Of a stretch of 64,000 nt of DNA, positions 1,410 to 22,925 are shown one piece after another. Position 1 is the stretch's first letter; each line of letters starts with the position of its first letter. Source of the DNA: an uncultured Veillonellaceae bacterium (GTDB taxonomy: Bacteria > Bacillota > Negativicutes > Selenomonadales > Selenomonadaceae). The stretch is taken from positions 1-64,000 of the forward strand of contig CADCIX010000013.1 in NCBI GenBank assembly GCA_902801565.1. The letters are read 5' to 3'. Made by a program: the position numbers and the translations under genes. The notes below the pieces were generated by a model. That model ran no database searches. It saw nothing but the letters and a program-made list of their open reading frames with translations, and had not been told where the DNA came from.

Positions 1410-1425
1410 TGTTTCACGTGAAACA
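1410..1425. promoter_or_regulatory. parS centromere site
   Basis: TGTTTCACGTGAAACA is a perfect 16-bp palindrome identical to the Bacillus parS consensus bound by Spo0J/ParB. It lies 200 bp upstream of parA and directly abuts a mosaic repeat. It would be the nucleation site for the ParB encoded at 2362. Confidence 0.95.
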
Positions 1426-1610: not shown

Positions 1611-2369
1611 TTGGCTAGGACGATAGCGATTGCAAACCAGAAGGGCGGCGTGGGCAAGACCACGACGGCGGTGAACCTCTGCGCCTGTCTTGCGGCTTTG
1701 AAGAAAAAGGTGCTGCTGGTGGACTGCGATCCCCAGGGGAATGCTACCAGTGGCTTCGGCATCAACAAGTCGGAGCTGGAGGCGACGGTATATGATGTGC
1801 TGATCAACAACAAGGACATCCATGAGGCAATCAAGGCGACGGAATACAAGGTGGACCTCCTGCCATCGAACATCGAGCTGGCGGGTGCGGAGATCGAGCT
1901 TGTGGCAGCGATTTCCAGGGAGACCCGTCTGAAGAAGGCATTGTCTCCGGTGCTGGAGGAGTATGACTATATCTTTATTGACTGTCCTCCTTCTCTGGGA
2001 CTTTTGACTCTCAATTCCTTGGCGGCGGCGGATTCTGTCCTCATGCCCATCCAGTGCGAATTCTATGCCCTGGAGGGCGTGTCCCAGCTCATGAACACGA
2101 TCCAGCTGATCCAGAACAATCTCAATCCCGATTTGAAGATTGAGGGCGTGCTGATGACGATGTACGATGCCCGCACCAATCTTTCCATGCAGGTCGTCCA
2201 TGAAGTTCGGAAGAATTTTGGCGATGCGGTCTACAAATCCATGATTCCGCGCAATGTGCGGCTTTCCGAGGCACCTTCCTATGGGGAGCCCATCATCGTC
2301 TACGATGGCAAGTCCAAGGGTGCGGAGGAATACATGAATCTTGCGAAGGAGGTAATCAAGCGTGGCTAG
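1611..2369 (+). CDS. parA: ParA/Soj chromosome-partition ATPase
   Basis: A 252-residue ParA/Soj protein. The deviant Walker A motif KGGVGKTTT lies near residues 10-18, followed by VDCDPQGNAT and a Walker B DCPPSLG near residue 124. It is a cytoplasmic, nucleoid-binding ATPase that works with ParB-parS to segregate origins. The start is a TTG: no ATG or GTG gives the conserved MARTIAIANQKGG beginning, and its ribosome site (GAGATGGTGAT) is weak. It overlaps parB by 8 bases, so the two are translated together. No gidA, gidB or dnaA lies beside it, unlike the usual origin-proximal arrangement. Confidence 0.96.
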   Translation: MARTIAIANQKGGVGKTTTAVNLCACLAALKKKVLLVDCDPQGNATSGFGINKSELEATVYDVLINNKDIHEAIKATEYKVDLLPSNIELAGAEIELVAAISRETRLKKALSPVLEEYDYIFIDCPPSLGLLTLNSLAAADSVLMPIQCEFYALEGVSQLMNTIQLIQNNLNPDLKIEGVLMTMYDARTNLSMQVVHEVRKNFGDAVYKSMIPRNVRLSEAPSYGEPIIVYDGKSKGAEEYMNLAKEVIKRG

Positions 2370-3312
2370 CAAGGTACATGGCGGCTTGGGAAAGGGGCTT
2401 GGCGCGTTGCTCCAGAGTACGCCGGTGGCTTCTGTTCCTCCGGGAGAGAAGGTTCAGGAAATCAAGGTATCTGACATTCGGGCGAACCGTTACCAGCCGC
2501 GCCAGGATTTCGATGAGGGTGCCATGGAGGAACTCAAGGAGTCCATCAAGAGCTATGGCGTGCTGCAGCCTGTCCTGGTGCGCAAATTGCCGGACGGGGG
2601 CTATGAACTGGTGGCCGGGGAACGCCGTCTGCGGGCGGCAAAGCTGGCAGGGGTGGAGGAAATCCCTGCCATGGTAAAGGAATACAATGACGCAGAAATC
2701 AGTGAGATCGCCCTGATTGAGAACATCCAGAGGGAAGATCTCAACGTCATTGAGGAAGCCCATGCCTATGACCGTCTGATGAAGGAATTCCAGCTGACGC
2801 AGGAGGCCATGGCGGGCAAATTGGGGCGCAGCCGTTCCCATATCGCCAATACGCTTCGTTTGCTGAAGCTTGCGCCAAAGGTTCAGGACTATGTTTCCAA
2901 TGGGACCCTTTCCATGGGGCAGGCACGTCCTCTCCTGGCCCTTGAGGACGAGGAGCTTCAATGCTCGACGGCAGACACGATACAGGAACAGGATCTTTCG
3001 GCGCGTCAGGCGGAAGCACTGGTGAAACGGATACAGGCGGGGGAGGACGTCGCTCCGAAGAAATCCTCACCGGCTGTAAAGGAGCAGGCGGTCTATGTGC
3101 GGGATGCGGAGGAGAAATTGCGGCAGCTGTTGGGAACCCAGGTGAAGATCCTCAGCGGCAAGAAGAAGAACCGCATAGAGATCGAGTTCTATTCCGAGGA
3201 GGATCTGGAGCGCATCCTTCAAAGCATGACGCAGACGCAGGATGATAGCGCGAAGCAGGAAAAGATTGAGGCACTGAGGAAGGTTTCCCTGGCACAGAAT
3301 TTCACAGTGTAA
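2362..3312 (+). CDS. parB: ParB/Spo0J CTP-dependent partition protein
   Basis: A 316-residue ParB. The N-terminal CTPase domain carries the GERRLRA motif near residue 85 and ENIQRE near residue 120. A central helix-turn-helix (GKLGRSRSHIANTLRLLKL, about 151-169) recognises parS, and the C-terminal part is the dimerisation region. Start is a GTG at 2362 preceded by GAAGGAGG inside the end of parA. The cognate parS is at 1410. The protein loads at parS, spreads as a sliding clamp and recruits SMC in Firmicutes; its role here is inferred from the family. Confidence 0.96.
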   Translation: MASKVHGGLGKGLGALLQSTPVASVPPGEKVQEIKVSDIRANRYQPRQDFDEGAMEELKESIKSYGVLQPVLVRKLPDGGYELVAGERRLRAAKLAGVEEIPAMVKEYNDAEISEIALIENIQREDLNVIEEAHAYDRLMKEFQLTQEAMAGKLGRSRSHIANTLRLLKLAPKVQDYVSNGTLSMGQARPLLALEDEELQCSTADTIQEQDLSARQAEALVKRIQAGEDVAPKKSSPAVKEQAVYVRDAEEKLRQLLGTQVKILSGKKKNRIEIEFYSEEDLERILQSMTQTQDDSAKQEKIEALRKVSLAQNFTV

Positions 3313-17639: not shown

Positions 17640-18226
17640 AAAGAAATTATAATATGCTTGCGGGAACCATCCTATTTCGGTTTCGCCCATCTTTCCAATG
17701 AAGACATGGTAGTCCCGTCTTAGAAGTTCCAGATAGACGAGATTTTCCAGGATATGCCCTCGGCCCATGTCCCGATATCCTAACAACATATTTCGGAAGC
17801 CCATGTCCACCAGATATTCCTTTCCGAGTGTTTTGAGGTGCTGCTTTCCTCTGATGTCATAGCGTTCTGCATGGTAAAAAACAAAGGCATCCTGCAAGGC
17901 ACGGATGTATTTGGCGACGGCATGGCCGGCAATGGACTGCCCCTTGCGTTGCTCTTTTAGATCACCCCTCTGCTGTCAGAATATTTCACATCTTGTTGGG
18001 AGAGGTTGCATTTCCTACGTTGGAACAGAGGAAGCGAATGATTTTTTCCAGTGTGTCCTGGTTTGCCCATAGGTCTGTTCTTTCTTTCCCAGTCGTTCCA
18101 TTATATATTTATAGAAAGAAAGATGATCTGTTAAATCGCTGTACTGCAGGGATTCAAGGTTCATGTGAAGGATGTTTTCGGAAGGAACGCCGCTTTGGAG
18201 CAGATGTTCATGGAACAGATTCCATT
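17640..18226 (-). pseudogene. Decayed DUF4143-type AAA ATPase
   Basis: On the minus strand three blocks remain in family order but in different frames. 18226-18075 gives LFHEHLLQSGVPSENILHMN and SDLTDHLSFYKYIMERL, the region after Walker A in DUF4143 ATPases. 18055-17985 gives TLEKIIRFLCSNVGNATSP. 17960-17690 gives AGHAVAKYIRALQDAFVFYH, LVDMGFRNMLLGYRDMGR, and HILENLVYLELLRRDYHVF ending IGKMGETEI. Walker A, Walker B and the end of the DUF4143 module are missing. Frameshifts and deletions make it non-functional. The intact relative is at 12367-13566. Confidence 0.82.
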
Positions 18227-18244
18227 TGATTTTTTTAATTCAAT

Positions 18245-18390
18245 TCAATTCAATACAACGATTTCATTATTAGTTTTGTAAAATCTTGCTTTGGATTGTT
18301 GGCTTACCAGCAAATATCCTTGTTCAATCAAGTTATTGAGTACCTTGTTGCGCAAGTAACTGGAATTACTGATGTCTAAATATGCAGCTA
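18245..18390 (-). pseudogene. C-terminal winged-helix remnant
   Basis: A 47-codon minus-strand stretch reads NIAAYLDISNSSYLRNKVL then NNLIEQGYLLVSQQSKARFY and ends KTNNEIVVLN before TGA (18245-18247). This resembles the winged-helix tail of AlbA_2-type proteins. A stop codon precedes it in frame and no start exists. A short TTCAA slippage run (18236-18255) overlaps its end. Confidence 0.6.
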
Positions 18391-18581
18391 TATTGCTTCA
18401 AAATAACTTCAATATAACTTCAACATAAAAACTGCTACTGGATGTATTTCAACTGATAAAAAATACAGTTGAAATACAATTGAAAATCAATTGAAAAACG
18501 AGGATATAATGGAAATACAGTTGAAAATATGATGTTTAGGTTGTACAATGGAATAGATATCGCATTGAAACGGACGGTGAT

Positions 18582-19838
18582 TTGCGCGTGAAGGAAAGCC
18601 GGACCTTGGAATTCAAAGAGGAAATAACGAATTCCTTTCTGAAGACTGTAAGTGCCTTTTCCAACTATGGAGGGGGCAGCATTGTTTTTGGGATTCGTGA
18701 TGATGGCAGCGTGGCAGGGCTGTCCAATCCAGAACAAGCCTGTCTGGATATTGAAAATAAGATTAATGACACGATACACCCTCAGCCGGATTACGAATTG
18801 ACCGTGCAATATGAGAGGAAAACAGTGACCTTGACAGTCCATGCGGGGCTGGAAAAACCATATATGTACAAATCCAAGGCGTATCGCAGAAATGATAGTG
18901 CAACCATTGAAGTGGACAAGACGGAATTGACCAGGTTGATTTTGCAAGGCCGTAATTTGAACTATGAGCAGCTGGCTGCCAAAGAGCAAGACTTGAGTTT
19001 CCACTCGTTGGAGCAAAAAGCCATAAGGGAAATAGGGATCAGCCGGCTCAATCATGATGTTCTGAAGACGCTGGATTTATATTCTGGTACAGAGGGGTTT
19101 AATCATGCGGCTGAACTGTTGGCGGACAGAAATTCCTTTCCCGGCATAGATATAGCTAGGTTTGGCAATTCCATTAATATTATTCTGAAACGCGTGACAT
19201 ATGAGCATATGTCTGTTCTTGACGCATTTGAGCAGACTGTGCAGATCTATCGTGACTATTACCAATACGAGGCCATTAAGGGAGTGGAGCGCGCAACGGT
19301 GGAACAGGTTCCGGAGGTGGCATTTCGTGAAGCCTTGGCCAATGCCCTTATTCACCGTACATGGGATGTGAGCGCACATATTCGTGTGTTGATGTTTGAT
19401 GACCGCATAGAAATTATCTCCCCCGGCGGATTGCCCAGCGGCATGACCAAGGAGGAATATCTCAGAGGCAGCGTTTCCATGCTCAGGAACCCCATACTGG
19501 GCAATATCTTTTATCGTTTGCATATGGTGGAGATTTTGGGAACGGGAATCCTGCGGATTCGCGGGGCTTATCGCAACAGCGGAAAGCACCCCATGTTTGA
19601 GGTTTCTGATAATTGCATTAAGGTAGTGCTTCCTGTGATGGACAGCCTTGAGTTGACCGAAGATGAAAAAATCGTCTATGGCGCTTTGAGCCGCATAACA
19701 CCGAAATCTGCCGGTGAAATCACCGGTGCCGTTCCCTTTGGGAGATCCAAAGTTGCAATGCTTCTAAAGTGCTTGGTGGATAAGGGTTGTGTCACTATTC
19801 ATGGAAATGGGAGAGGAACCAAGTACAGCAGGCAATAA
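18582..19838 (+). CDS. AlbA_2 (Schlafen-like) putative DNA-binding/ATPase protein
   Basis: About 418 residues. The N-terminal AlbA_2 domain has ESRTLEFKEEI, NYGGGSIVFGIRDDG and AYRRNDSATIEV. A middle ATPase-like region has EVAFREALANALIHRTWDV (about 245) and RIEIISPGGLPSGM, typical of RecG-like helicase-related proteins with a HATPase_c_4 fold. A winged helix is at the C-terminus (about 360-418). Start is unclear: TTG 18582 or GTG 18588, without a good ribosome site, and the frame is open back to 18540 without an ATG, so the N-terminus may be slightly truncated. It is probably a regulator; its role is unknown. Confidence 0.82.
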   Translation: MRVKESRTLEFKEEITNSFLKTVSAFSNYGGGSIVFGIRDDGSVAGLSNPEQACLDIENKINDTIHPQPDYELTVQYERKTVTLTVHAGLEKPYMYKSKAYRRNDSATIEVDKTELTRLILQGRNLNYEQLAAKEQDLSFHSLEQKAIREIGISRLNHDVLKTLDLYSGTEGFNHAAELLADRNSFPGIDIARFGNSINIILKRVTYEHMSVLDAFEQTVQIYRDYYQYEAIKGVERATVEQVPEVAFREALANALIHRTWDVSAHIRVLMFDDRIEIISPGGLPSGMTKEEYLRGSVSMLRNPILGNIFYRLHMVEILGTGILRIRGAYRNSGKHPMFEVSDNCIKVVLPVMDSLELTEDEKIVYGALSRITPKSAGEITGAVPFGRSKVAMLLKCLVDKGCVTIHGNGRGTKYSRQ

Positions 19839-19876
19839 GCCATGTGAAAACGAGCCATACAACCTCCATTTTCCCT

Positions 19877-19905
19877 TTGACATTCCTTGCTTCCTGGGAT
19901 AAAAT
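19877..19905 (+). promoter_or_regulatory. SigA-type promoter of the acyl-CoA ligase
   Basis: Perfect TTGACA (19877-19882), 17-base spacer, TAAAAT (19900-19905), about 43 bases before the start region. Confidence 0.8.
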
Positions 19906-19947
19906 CAAAGGAATACAGATATACATATATGTTAGGAACTGGAAGGA

Positions 19948-21462
19948 ATGGTGCGCAAGATGTTTTTGCATGAGCTTACCCGCAAGGGCCGTCCCAACGA
20001 TATTGCCATCGTGGATCATGGCCGTCGTTTCACCTATGATGAGTTTGCCGCGAAGATCAAGTTCTGCCGCAACAGCCTGTACGCCTCGGGGGTTCGTCTT
20101 GGAGACCGTGTGGGGCTTTTCTCGCGCAACAGCGCCGAGTTCGTCTTTGCCTATATGGGCATTGTCTCCCTGGGGGCCATTGTCGTTCCCATCAACTTCC
20201 AGCTCAAGAGCCGTGAGGTTGCCTACATTATTAAAGATGCCGGAATCCAGCATATCCTGACCTATGAGCCGCTTCATTTGGATAATGCATTGGCTTCCCT
20301 GGGCTGTGACACGAAGATTGTCCAGCATGACATCGCGGCCTTTATGGAGGCGGAGCCTTCCTGGACGGCTGCGCCGGACCTTCCCCATGACTTCGAGGAG
20401 ACGAGCCCTGCCGTCATCATCTACACCTCCGGCACCACGGGACTGCCCAAGGGCGCGGTGCTCTCCCACCGCAATCTCGTGAGCAATGCGGAGCAGATGA
20501 CGTGGATGGGCTGCAAGAAGGAGCATGTGGTGCTCTGCGTGCTTCCCATGTACCATTGCTTCGGCTGGACCTGCTCGGTGCTCTATCCCTTCTATTCCGG
20601 CGCATCCGTCGTCATCCTTGATGCCTTCACGCCGAAGGAGACCATCGAGACCATCCGCACGGAAAAGGTTACGGATATGTACGTTGTTCCTTCCATCTGC
20701 AGCCTGCTCACCAAGCTGGCCACCGCAGAGGACATGAAGACCCTGCGCCTCGTGGTCAGCGGCGGAACAACCCTTCCCCTCAAGATCGAGGAGGATTTCA
20801 TCGCGAAGTTTGGCGTTTCCATCTGCGAGGGCTACGGCCTTTCCGAGGCCAGCCCGGTGGTCACCATGAATCCCGCAGGGAAAGAGAAAATCGGCTCCAT
20901 CGGGCCGGTCATTCCCGGCATACAATGGCGCCTTGTGGATGCGGAGGGCAATGACGTGCACCGGGGCGAGGCAGGGGAACTCATCATCAAGGGCCCCAAT
21001 GTCATGCTGGGCTACTGGAACCTTCCCGATGCCACGGAAGAGGCCCTGCGGGGCGGCTGGCTCCATACCGGGGATGTTGCCCGCGCGGATGAGGATGGGT
21101 ACATCTTCATCGTGGACCGCCTCAAGGACATGATCATCAGCATGGGAGAGAACATCTATCCCCGTGAGGTGGAGGAGCTCATCTACCAGTATCCCGGTAT
21201 CTATGAGGCTGCCGTGGTGGGTGTGGAGGACAAGCTCCGCGGCCAGGCGGGTGTCTGCTTCTATGCACTGCAGGAGGGCACGGAGGGCTTCAAGGCCAGG
21301 GACCTCAAGAAGTTCCTGCAGCAGAATCTGGCCCTCTACAAGATTCCCAGGGAATTCTACGAGATGGAGGCTCTTCCCCGCACTTCCACCGGAAAGATTG
21401 CCAAGCGCATCCTTTCCGAGAACTACAACAAGGACAAGGCTGCGAAGAAGACGCAGAAATAA
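19948..21462 (+). CDS. Acyl-CoA ligase (AMP-binding, fatty-acid type)
   Basis: A 504-residue ANL-superfamily enzyme that activates a carboxylic acid as acyl-AMP and passes it to CoA. The P-loop-like motif IYTSGTTGLPKGAVLSH lies near 157-173, GYGLSEASPV near 297, GWLHTGDVARADEDGY near 371 and the catalytic lysine motif TGKIAKR near 487. ATG 19948 has GGAAGG almost touching it; ATG 19960 has better spacing and gives a start 4 residues later. A hotdog thioesterase gene follows downstream beyond repeat B. Chain length of the substrate cannot be read from sequence. Confidence 0.92.
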   Translation: MVRKMFLHELTRKGRPNDIAIVDHGRRFTYDEFAAKIKFCRNSLYASGVRLGDRVGLFSRNSAEFVFAYMGIVSLGAIVVPINFQLKSREVAYIIKDAGIQHILTYEPLHLDNALASLGCDTKIVQHDIAAFMEAEPSWTAAPDLPHDFEETSPAVIIYTSGTTGLPKGAVLSHRNLVSNAEQMTWMGCKKEHVVLCVLPMYHCFGWTCSVLYPFYSGASVVILDAFTPKETIETIRTEKVTDMYVVPSICSLLTKLATAEDMKTLRLVVSGGTTLPLKIEEDFIAKFGVSICEGYGLSEASPVVTMNPAGKEKIGSIGPVIPGIQWRLVDAEGNDVHRGEAGELIIKGPNVMLGYWNLPDATEEALRGGWLHTGDVARADEDGYIFIVDRLKDMIISMGENIYPREVEELIYQYPGIYEAAVVGVEDKLRGQAGVCFYALQEGTEGFKARDLKKFLQQNLALYKIPREFYEMEALPRTSTGKIAKRILSENYNKDKAAKKTQK

Positions 21463-21649: not shown

Positions 21650-22066
21650 ATGTTGACGGAGGAATTCAAGCGGAAGGTTGAGGACCATATCATAAAGCAG
21701 GCAGCCATGGTGGACCACCTCGGCGTGAAGATGGACAGCGTTGAGGAGGGGAAGGTTGTGCTTTCCATGGATGTGGCCATCCATACGACGAATGGCTACC
21801 GCATCTGTCATGGGGGGGCATTCATGACGCTGGCGGACTCGTCCATGGGGGCGGTCTGCTTTGCCTATAACAAGAAGGTCGTTACCCTGGAGGCGAACAT
21901 CAGCTACCTGAAGCGTGCCCCGGTGGGCCGTCATCTGCGCTGTGTGGCGACCTGCCTCCACAATGGGGCGCGCACCCTGTCCTGTGCATGTGATATCTTC
22001 GACGAGGAGAACCATCTTTGCGCACAGGCAAGGGGAACCTTCTTTGTCGTGGGGAAAATCGAGTAA
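21650..22066 (+). CDS. Hotdog-fold acyl-CoA thioesterase (PaaI-like)
   Basis: A 138-residue PaaI/YbgC-superfamily thioesterase. The hallmark segment IHTTNGYRICHGGAFMTLAD (about 44-63) carries the catalytic Asp/Asn-His-Gly-Gly region, and LEANISYLKRAP follows as the central beta strands. Such enzymes hydrolyse acyl- or aryl-CoA and form tetramers. ATG 21650 is preceded only by AAGGCGGGG, part of which abuts repeat B, so the ribosome site may have been altered by the repeat. Context with the acyl-CoA ligase suggests control of acyl-CoA pools. Confidence 0.88.
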   Translation: MLTEEFKRKVEDHIIKQAAMVDHLGVKMDSVEEGKVVLSMDVAIHTTNGYRICHGGAFMTLADSSMGAVCFAYNKKVVTLEANISYLKRAPVGRHLRCVATCLHNGARTLSCACDIFDEENHLCAQARGTFFVVGKIE

Positions 22067-22088
22067 AATTTTTCCACGGGAGATGGAC

Positions 22089-22186
22089 TTATCCACAGTT
22101 GGGATTGAGTTACCCACAGGATTTTTGTGGATAACCTGTGAATCTTGGGGATAATGTGGCATTTGGCGGCGCGGCCTTGTGGATAT
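22089..22186. other. Cluster of five DnaA-box-like sequences
   Basis: Perfect TTATCCACA occurs at 22089-22097 and, inverted, at 22126-22134. One-mismatch boxes are TTACCCACA (22110-22118), inverted TTATCCCCA (22146-22154) and inverted ATATCCACA (22178-22186). All lie in the 178-bp gap between the thioesterase and phosphatase genes. This density is far above chance and typical of DnaA-binding regions. Confidence 0.7.
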
Positions 22187-22244
22187 ATTGCATATGTTCC
22201 TGTGACATGGACGATATGTTGCAGCAACGGGGGAGGGAAGAGCC

Positions 22245-22925
22245 ATGGGATATGAGCGGATTCTGGCAATCGGCGATATGCACGGGAACTTCGACAGGCT
22301 GTTGTCGGTTTTCCACAAGGTGCAGTTTCGTCCGGAGAAGGATCTGCTGATTCTGCTGGGGGACTATATCGACCGCGGTTCCGAGAATCTGCGCTGTCTG
22401 CGCTGGGCCATGGAGATGAGCGAGAAGGAGAATGTCATCGCCCTGCGGGGCAACCATGAGCAGATGATGCTGGAATACTACGCCCTGAAGGGGGAGTACA
22501 GTGATATATGGCTGCCCAATGGCGGGAGTGCCACGAAACGTGAAATGGATGCCTGGATGAAGCGGGATCCCGGGGCATTGAGGAGAGTCCTGGACTTCAT
22601 TCTCGCCCGTCCCCTGTATCATCGGCTCGAGGTGGATGGGCAGGAGTACATCTTTTGCCACGCGGGATGGAAGCCGGGAGTACCTTTGGAGGAGCAGAAC
22701 GAGGAGACTTTGCTCTGGATACGCAGCGAGTTCTACCGGCATTATGAAGGGGATGCCATTGCCGTGGTGGGGCATACGCCCACAGAGTATTTCGATAGCG
22801 GGCATACAACGCCGATTTTCTTTGGGAACATCATTCTCCTGGACACGGGGTCCTTCCTGCCCCAGGGGAAAATTTCCTGCATTGATGTTCTCACACGGCA
22901 GGTGTGGCAAAGCGATTCTATGTGA
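22245..22925 (+). CDS. Calcineurin-like serine/threonine (PPP) phosphatase
   Basis: A 226-residue PPP-family metallophosphatase. Metal-binding motifs appear in order: GDMHGNFDRL (about 9-18), GDYIDRGSENL (about 38), RGNHEQM (about 67), CHAGWKPG (about 139) and GHTPTEY (about 171). The family includes bacterial PrpA/PrpB-type protein phosphatases and ApaH-like enzymes that split dinucleoside polyphosphates, and the two cannot be told apart here. ATG 22245 has GGGAGGG upstream. The gene follows the DnaA-box cluster. Confidence 0.9.
   Translation: MGYERILAIGDMHGNFDRLLSVFHKVQFRPEKDLLILLGDYIDRGSENLRCLRWAMEMSEKENVIALRGNHEQMMLEYYALKGEYSDIWLPNGGSATKREMDAWMKRDPGALRRVLDFILARPLYHRLEVDGQEYIFCHAGWKPGVPLEEQNEETLLWIRSEFYRHYEGDAIAVVGHTPTEYFDSGHTTPIFFGNIILLDTGSFLPQGKISCIDVLTRQVWQSDSM

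Follow-up and report, generated by a model that had tools for sequence, protein, structure and literature searches.

The window analysed here, a 64,000-nucleotide stretch of DNA at the start of contig C13 of an uncultured member of the Selenomonadaceae whose closest named relatives are mostly genomes from rumen and other gut metagenomes, contains a non-coding gap between a thioesterase gene and a phosphatase gene. Within this gap lie five DnaA boxes in 98 bp (22089-22186), two of them perfect, one of these inverted, and three with one mismatch, all at the positions given in a preliminary description of the sequence.

21650..22066, plus strand: 4HBT thioesterase gene, upstream of the gap (Pfam PF03061, E 3e-15)
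22067-22244: non-coding gap of 178 bp that holds the cluster
22089..22097, plus strand: DnaA box 1, perfect TTATCCACA; forms the opposed outer pair with box 3, invariant in three congeneric genomes
22110..22118, plus strand: DnaA box 2, TTACCCACA; middle box, offset 21
22126..22134, minus strand: DnaA box 3, perfect TTATCCACA; opposed outer partner of box 1, invariant in three congeneric genomes
22146..22154, minus strand: DnaA box 4, TTATCCCCA; offset 57
22178..22186, minus strand: DnaA box 5, ATATCCACA; position not conserved
22245..22925, plus strand: calcineurin-like (PPP) phosphatase gene, following the gap (Pfam PF00149, E 6.7e-22)

The two perfect boxes, 1 and 3, are opposed and 37 bp apart, start-to-start. 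A looser consensus, TTWTNCACA, adds TTTTCCACG at 22070 and, within the phosphatase gene, TTTTCCACA at 22309. The total number of boxes in the 64-kb window is not unusual (15 with at most one mismatch, against 10.1 expected). Their clustering is unusual, as 300 Markov-1 sequences of 64 kb with the same dinucleotide make-up gave no more than two boxes in any 98 bp against the five seen here. Genome-wide, perfect boxes number 29, against 11 for the reversed control. The DnaA of this organism carries DHTTV, the motif of the DnaA box-binding domain, in its domain IV, and the combination of an exact consensus with a DnaA bearing this recognition signature makes binding at the cluster highly likely. 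Separately, a second, weak Bac_DnaA domain match was seen on another contig (C3:87975-88268, E 8e-6) in a 208-aa open frame, perhaps that of a DnaA-like loader or regulator. Elsewhere in the window, the GC content dips locally at 18001-20000 (0.43 versus about 0.55) around a gene at 18582-19838 with AlbA_2/Schlafen and RecG C-terminal-like domains, which may be a recent acquisition.

Comparison with two genomes of the same genus, G001 and G002 (assemblies RUG11858, UBA3796; both draft metagenome assemblies), shows that the order thioesterase, box cluster, phosphatase is kept in both, with gap lengths of 178, 148 and 98 bp in this genome, G001 and G002, respectively. All 18 bases of the two perfect outer boxes are invariant in the three genomes, as are their 37-bp spacing and opposed orientation, while the rest of the gap outside the five boxes retains just 16 invariant bases out of 133. 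The flanking coding sequence also falls below the outer boxes, with 67/90 invariant bases at the end of the thioesterase gene and 40/60 at the start of the phosphatase gene. The invariance of the perfect boxes and their spacing, set against a gap that has otherwise drifted, is a strong sign that the opposed pair is under selection and, to judge by this conservation, the boxes are functional sites. The middle one-mismatch box is present in all three genomes, at offset 21 here and in G001; in G002 it is on the opposite strand at the mirror-image offset, which equals 21 when the near-symmetric module is read from its other end. A one-mismatch counterpart of box 4 is found at offset 57 in G001 and is absent from G002. 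Only the two outer boxes are strictly conserved, and the two outermost weak boxes are kept in part. The preliminary description had proposed looking for the boxes in syntenic gaps of relatives, and both perfect boxes and the 37-bp spacing are indeed present there in the two congeners.

An inverted repeat between two genes might also act as an RNA hairpin or terminator, with its likeness to DnaA boxes being incidental. The repeat does run a few bases past the boxes in G001 and G002, and the G002 gap contains a weak terminator-like match. In the window, however, the repeat ends at the box, and the terminator search found none in the window gap or in G001; furthermore, the roughly one-turn spacing of opposed pairs across the family, described below, would be unexpected for RNA loops. 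With no terminator found in the window gap and a repeat that stops at the box, this reading is rejected as very unlikely.

At 38 other loci of the phosphatase gene, all in other genera, no box cluster was found and the thioesterase does not adjoin the phosphatase, so a cluster at the exact thioesterase-phosphatase locus is confined to one genus (three genomes). The cluster therefore belongs to the gap in this genus rather than to the phosphatase, and a link to the phosphatase gene itself is rejected. The main rival to the reading we prefer is one in which DnaA acts as a transcription factor, repressing or activating the phosphatase promoter from the cluster and tying expression to replication. 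The position of the cluster allows this: the boxes precede the phosphatase ATG by 60-150 bp, with only about 43 bp between the last box and the ATG in G002. Boxes 3 and 4 overlap a weak sigma-70-like match (9/12), and a box module is also present in the dnaA promoter. Conversely, such a promoter-like match is no more than chance would give (0.4 expected) and neither congener has it, the sister modules adjoin unrelated genes, and an upstream box cluster is seen at 0 of the 38 other phosphatase loci. Moreover, the thioesterase and phosphatase genes are co-directional and the window gap between them showed no terminator, so that read-through into the phosphatase is possible. A promoter role is possible but unsupported, and we regard it as unlikely.

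The preliminary description had correctly noted that no dnaA lies in the window; the gene is at G000:C12:45079, on a contig other than the window's C13. On C12 the GC skew is negative to about 46 kb and mostly positive beyond, changing sign at dnaA-dnaN (46-48 kb), and groups of boxes occur in the dnaA promoter and between dnaA and dnaN. As the sign change and the box groups coincide there, oriC is at dnaA-dnaN on C12. On C13 the skew is positive on both sides of the cluster and along most of the contig, so that the GC-skew analysis suggested earlier as a way to place oriC finds a sign change at dnaA-dnaN and none at the cluster. A displaced or second replication origin could draw on the origin-like density of the boxes and on the nearby parS, but the neighbours of the cluster are not dnaA or dnaN, the G002 gap is just 98 bp long, and the marks of oriC, a skew sign change and adjoining dnaA/dnaN, are not found at the cluster. 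The GC skew and the position of dnaA speak against an origin, which the preliminary description had already ranked as the least supported reading; a displaced origin is rejected on these grounds and we give it next to no weight.

The distance between the cluster and dnaA deserves separate consideration, as the start of the window carries a partitioning locus.

1410..1425: perfect parS; the other four perfect parS of the genome are on the dnaA contig C12, at 1-12 kb
1611-2366, plus strand: parA, at the origin-proximal end of the contig
2362-3312, plus strand: parB/noc-like gene, at the origin-proximal end of the contig

The parS that the preliminary description placed about 21 kb from the boxes is a perfect one, at window position 1410. 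In the relative G012, a single contig carries dnaA, the C12 genes in descending order to C12:11858, parA, parB and then the C13 genes, and the same junction of C12, parA/parB and C13 is found in G021. The distance from parB to dnaA is about 24, 50 and 56 kb in three complete relatives, and in G001 the cluster and dnaA lie on one contig, 12 kb apart. A comparison of the end sequences of C12 and C13 found no overlap and, because the contig ends share no sequence, their adjacency is drawn from gene order only. We infer as the simplest layout one in which C12 and C13 have their low ends towards each other, so that the cluster would lie about 67 kb from dnaA plus the gap between the contigs; this layout fits the positive skew seen over most of C13. 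On the evidence of these genes, the start of the window (parS, parA, parB) appears to be part of the origin neighbourhood, and the cluster is probably near the origin. The earlier statement that the boxes lie far from any dnaA holds for the contig only and is in part a product of contig breaks, given the probably origin-proximal window start and the 12 kb to dnaA in G001. Since the window start appears to belong to the origin neighbourhood, stress on this distance is misleading and the phrase should be dropped.

The cluster is one of several that are dispersed through the genome. This genome has five opposed pairs of the form TTATCCACA-N10-40-TGTGGATAA, as does G002, and G001 has three; the backwards control gave none. 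The four other opposed pairs of this genome lie in the dnaA promoter and in the MscL, MgtC-LCP and SEC-C gaps, and a further cluster lies in the gap beside an AICARFT-like gene, a name that was read from the C-terminal sequence of the gene and not from a family match.

G000:C12:44596: dnaA-promoter module of opposed perfect boxes and a middle box, in the order plus, minus, minus at 0, 11 and 23 bp
G000:C5:661-704 (L003:661-704): MscL-side opposed pair, adjoining MscL and a CobT-like gene
G000:C26:21825-21935 (L006:3826-3935): opposed pair with three further boxes, between the MgtC and LytR-CpsA-Psr (LCP) genes
G000:C12:34020-34148 (L005:4021-4148): consensus boxes clustered where the AICARFT-like gene ends, about 11 kb from dnaA

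The module upstream of dnaA is common to G001 and G002 as well. The MscL pair is kept in only one of the two congeners, G002 (C143:3935), and is also found next to MscL in L164. The MgtC/LCP site has counterparts in the congeners, LCP-side clusters recur in G019 (L139), G070 (L141) and L165, and box pairs occur in the AICARFT-like neighbourhood in G007 (L155) and G023 (L143). The LCP, MscL and AICARFT-like neighbourhoods thus bear clusters in other genera too.

Across the family, opposed perfect pairs occur in 53 of 61 Selenomonadaceae genomes. None is present in G014, G054, G067 and G077 (genus g13) or in G021, and others have up to seven; loss or an altered box consensus are possible causes where they are missing. 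Opposed pairs (189) outnumber direct (89) and divergent (64) ones, where random orientation would give 85.5, 171 and 85.5, respectively. The start-to-start spacing of the 87 opposed pairs listed for the family takes only values of 21-26, 33-37 and 45-47 bp, and never 27-32 or 38-44 bp among these pairs, so that successive classes are about one helical turn apart; in the 23-bp class the middle box stands at 11 or 12 bp. Because the spacing figures cover only the pairs listed, of which those in related genomes are non-independent and some share a box, and because the de-duplication is rough, they describe a pattern and not exact probabilities. With similar spacers removed, the 38 listed pairs that are left show the same pattern, with a best period of 11.8 bp that 0 of 5000 uniform draws matched in strength. 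Elsewhere in the phylum, 43 listed pairs from families other than the Selenomonadaceae fall mainly into these classes, with some exceptions, and 9 of 20000 draws reached the strength observed at 11.8 bp. For direct pairs the peaks are at 20-24, 32-33 and 37-38 bp, and for divergent pairs at 27-30 and 38-41 bp; some of these peaks may stem from orthologous dnaA-dnaN regions.

The plain reading of the opposed spacing is that the DnaA molecules on the outer boxes would need to sit on the same face of the helix. A literature search, which misses most subscription papers, gave no clear precedent for helically spaced DnaA boxes outside oriC, and the family-wide rule of orientation and spacing may be the part of this work that a specialist finds new. 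A more ambitious proposal, which we hold tentatively and with some doubt, is that the Selenomonadaceae, and more loosely the phylum, possess a standard module of facing high-affinity boxes placed whole turns apart (about 23, 35 and 46 bp) with weaker boxes between them, at a set of sites of which some are conserved across genera. The face-to-face geometry of such a module would hold a DnaA dimer or short oligomer with a dedicated effect, either inactivation or DARS-like reactivation, as opposed to passive titration.

The second of these effects has a precedent in E. coli, where the DARS1 and DARS2 cores, as read from the K-12 record, each consist of three boxes in the order plus, minus, minus at 0, 14 and 26 bp, and a pair of DnaA molecules arranged head-to-head mediates the action of DARS boxes I and II (PMC8682772). 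Like these cores, the cluster has three boxes within some tens of bp of each other, of which one is opposed to the remaining two, and the DARS outer spacing of 26 bp falls within the first spacing class of the family. The order of the dnaA-promoter module is likewise reminiscent of a DARS core; that module and the cluster both have opposed perfect boxes with a middle box, at an outer spacing of 23 bp in the former and 37 bp in the latter. If the cluster were a DARS-like site, its opposed boxes would hold facing molecules of ADP-DnaA and promote the loss of ADP, reactivating DnaA rather than sequestering it. However, the spacing of the inner boxes differs from that of DARS, with a layout of 0/16/37 in the cluster (read from the other strand) and 0/11/23 in the dnaA promoter: boxes I and II are separated by 11 or 16 bp instead of 14, and boxes II and III of the cluster by 21 bp instead of 12. 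B. subtilis has moreover been reported to be without DARS (PMC13220808). We therefore consider a DARS-like role decidedly improbable.

A closer parallel is provided by B. subtilis itself, for which two reviews describe six DnaA-box clusters outside oriC that together delay initiation (PMC5295017, PMC13220808, citing Okumura 2012). According to these reviews, loss of the clusters leads to early initiation, strongly so only when all are gone, and reinsertion of a single cluster gives partial restoration (PMC5295017; PMC13220808). Here too there are several dispersed clusters of consensus boxes outside oriC, at least some of them near it, and the origin lies around dnaA-dnaN. The neighbouring genes, by contrast, are those of the Selenomonadaceae. 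With several consensus boxes in a short stretch outside oriC, the present cluster joins an already known kind of element, the DnaA-box clusters outside oriC. The E. coli locus datA likewise has five DnaA boxes outside oriC, but that locus depends on IHF and extends over about 1 kb (PMC5295017), whereas the present cluster spans 98 bp. The density of boxes in E. coli is higher close to the origin, which has been described as favourable for titration (PMC12371093).

Taken together, these comparisons lead us to propose that the gap probably contains a DnaA-binding cluster, distinct from oriC, which serves to sequester DnaA and to tune initiation much as the clusters of B. subtilis do. A cluster that is conserved, probably near the origin and one of about six fits a role of the B. 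subtilis type best. Among the three readings offered in the preliminary description, the titration-type one fits best since the genome has a whole set of modules beside unrelated genes, and the displaced origin falls to the GC skew. In this model, DnaA monomers would bind the two opposed high-affinity boxes with their 37-bp spacing and, assisted by the weaker boxes in the middle and on the flanks, would assemble into a small complex along a single helix face. The cluster and about five sister modules, one of them in the dnaA promoter, would together sequester DnaA. Once the origin region had been copied, the doubled clusters would lower the level of free DnaA and so delay the next initiation. 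We infer this titration effect for the set of modules; that of one five-box cluster alone would be small.

Our results suggest that the cluster helps to control the timing of chromosome copying in this organism. Little is known of the control of replication timing by sites outside oriC beyond E. coli and B. subtilis, and a 2026 review treats as open whether B. subtilis possesses regulators of the balance between ADP-DnaA and ATP-DnaA (PMC13220808). A conserved, dispersed set of modules with a preferred orientation and stepwise spacing constitutes a testable design rule. The same module pattern provides a genomic signature by which such sites can be located in uncultured bacteria.
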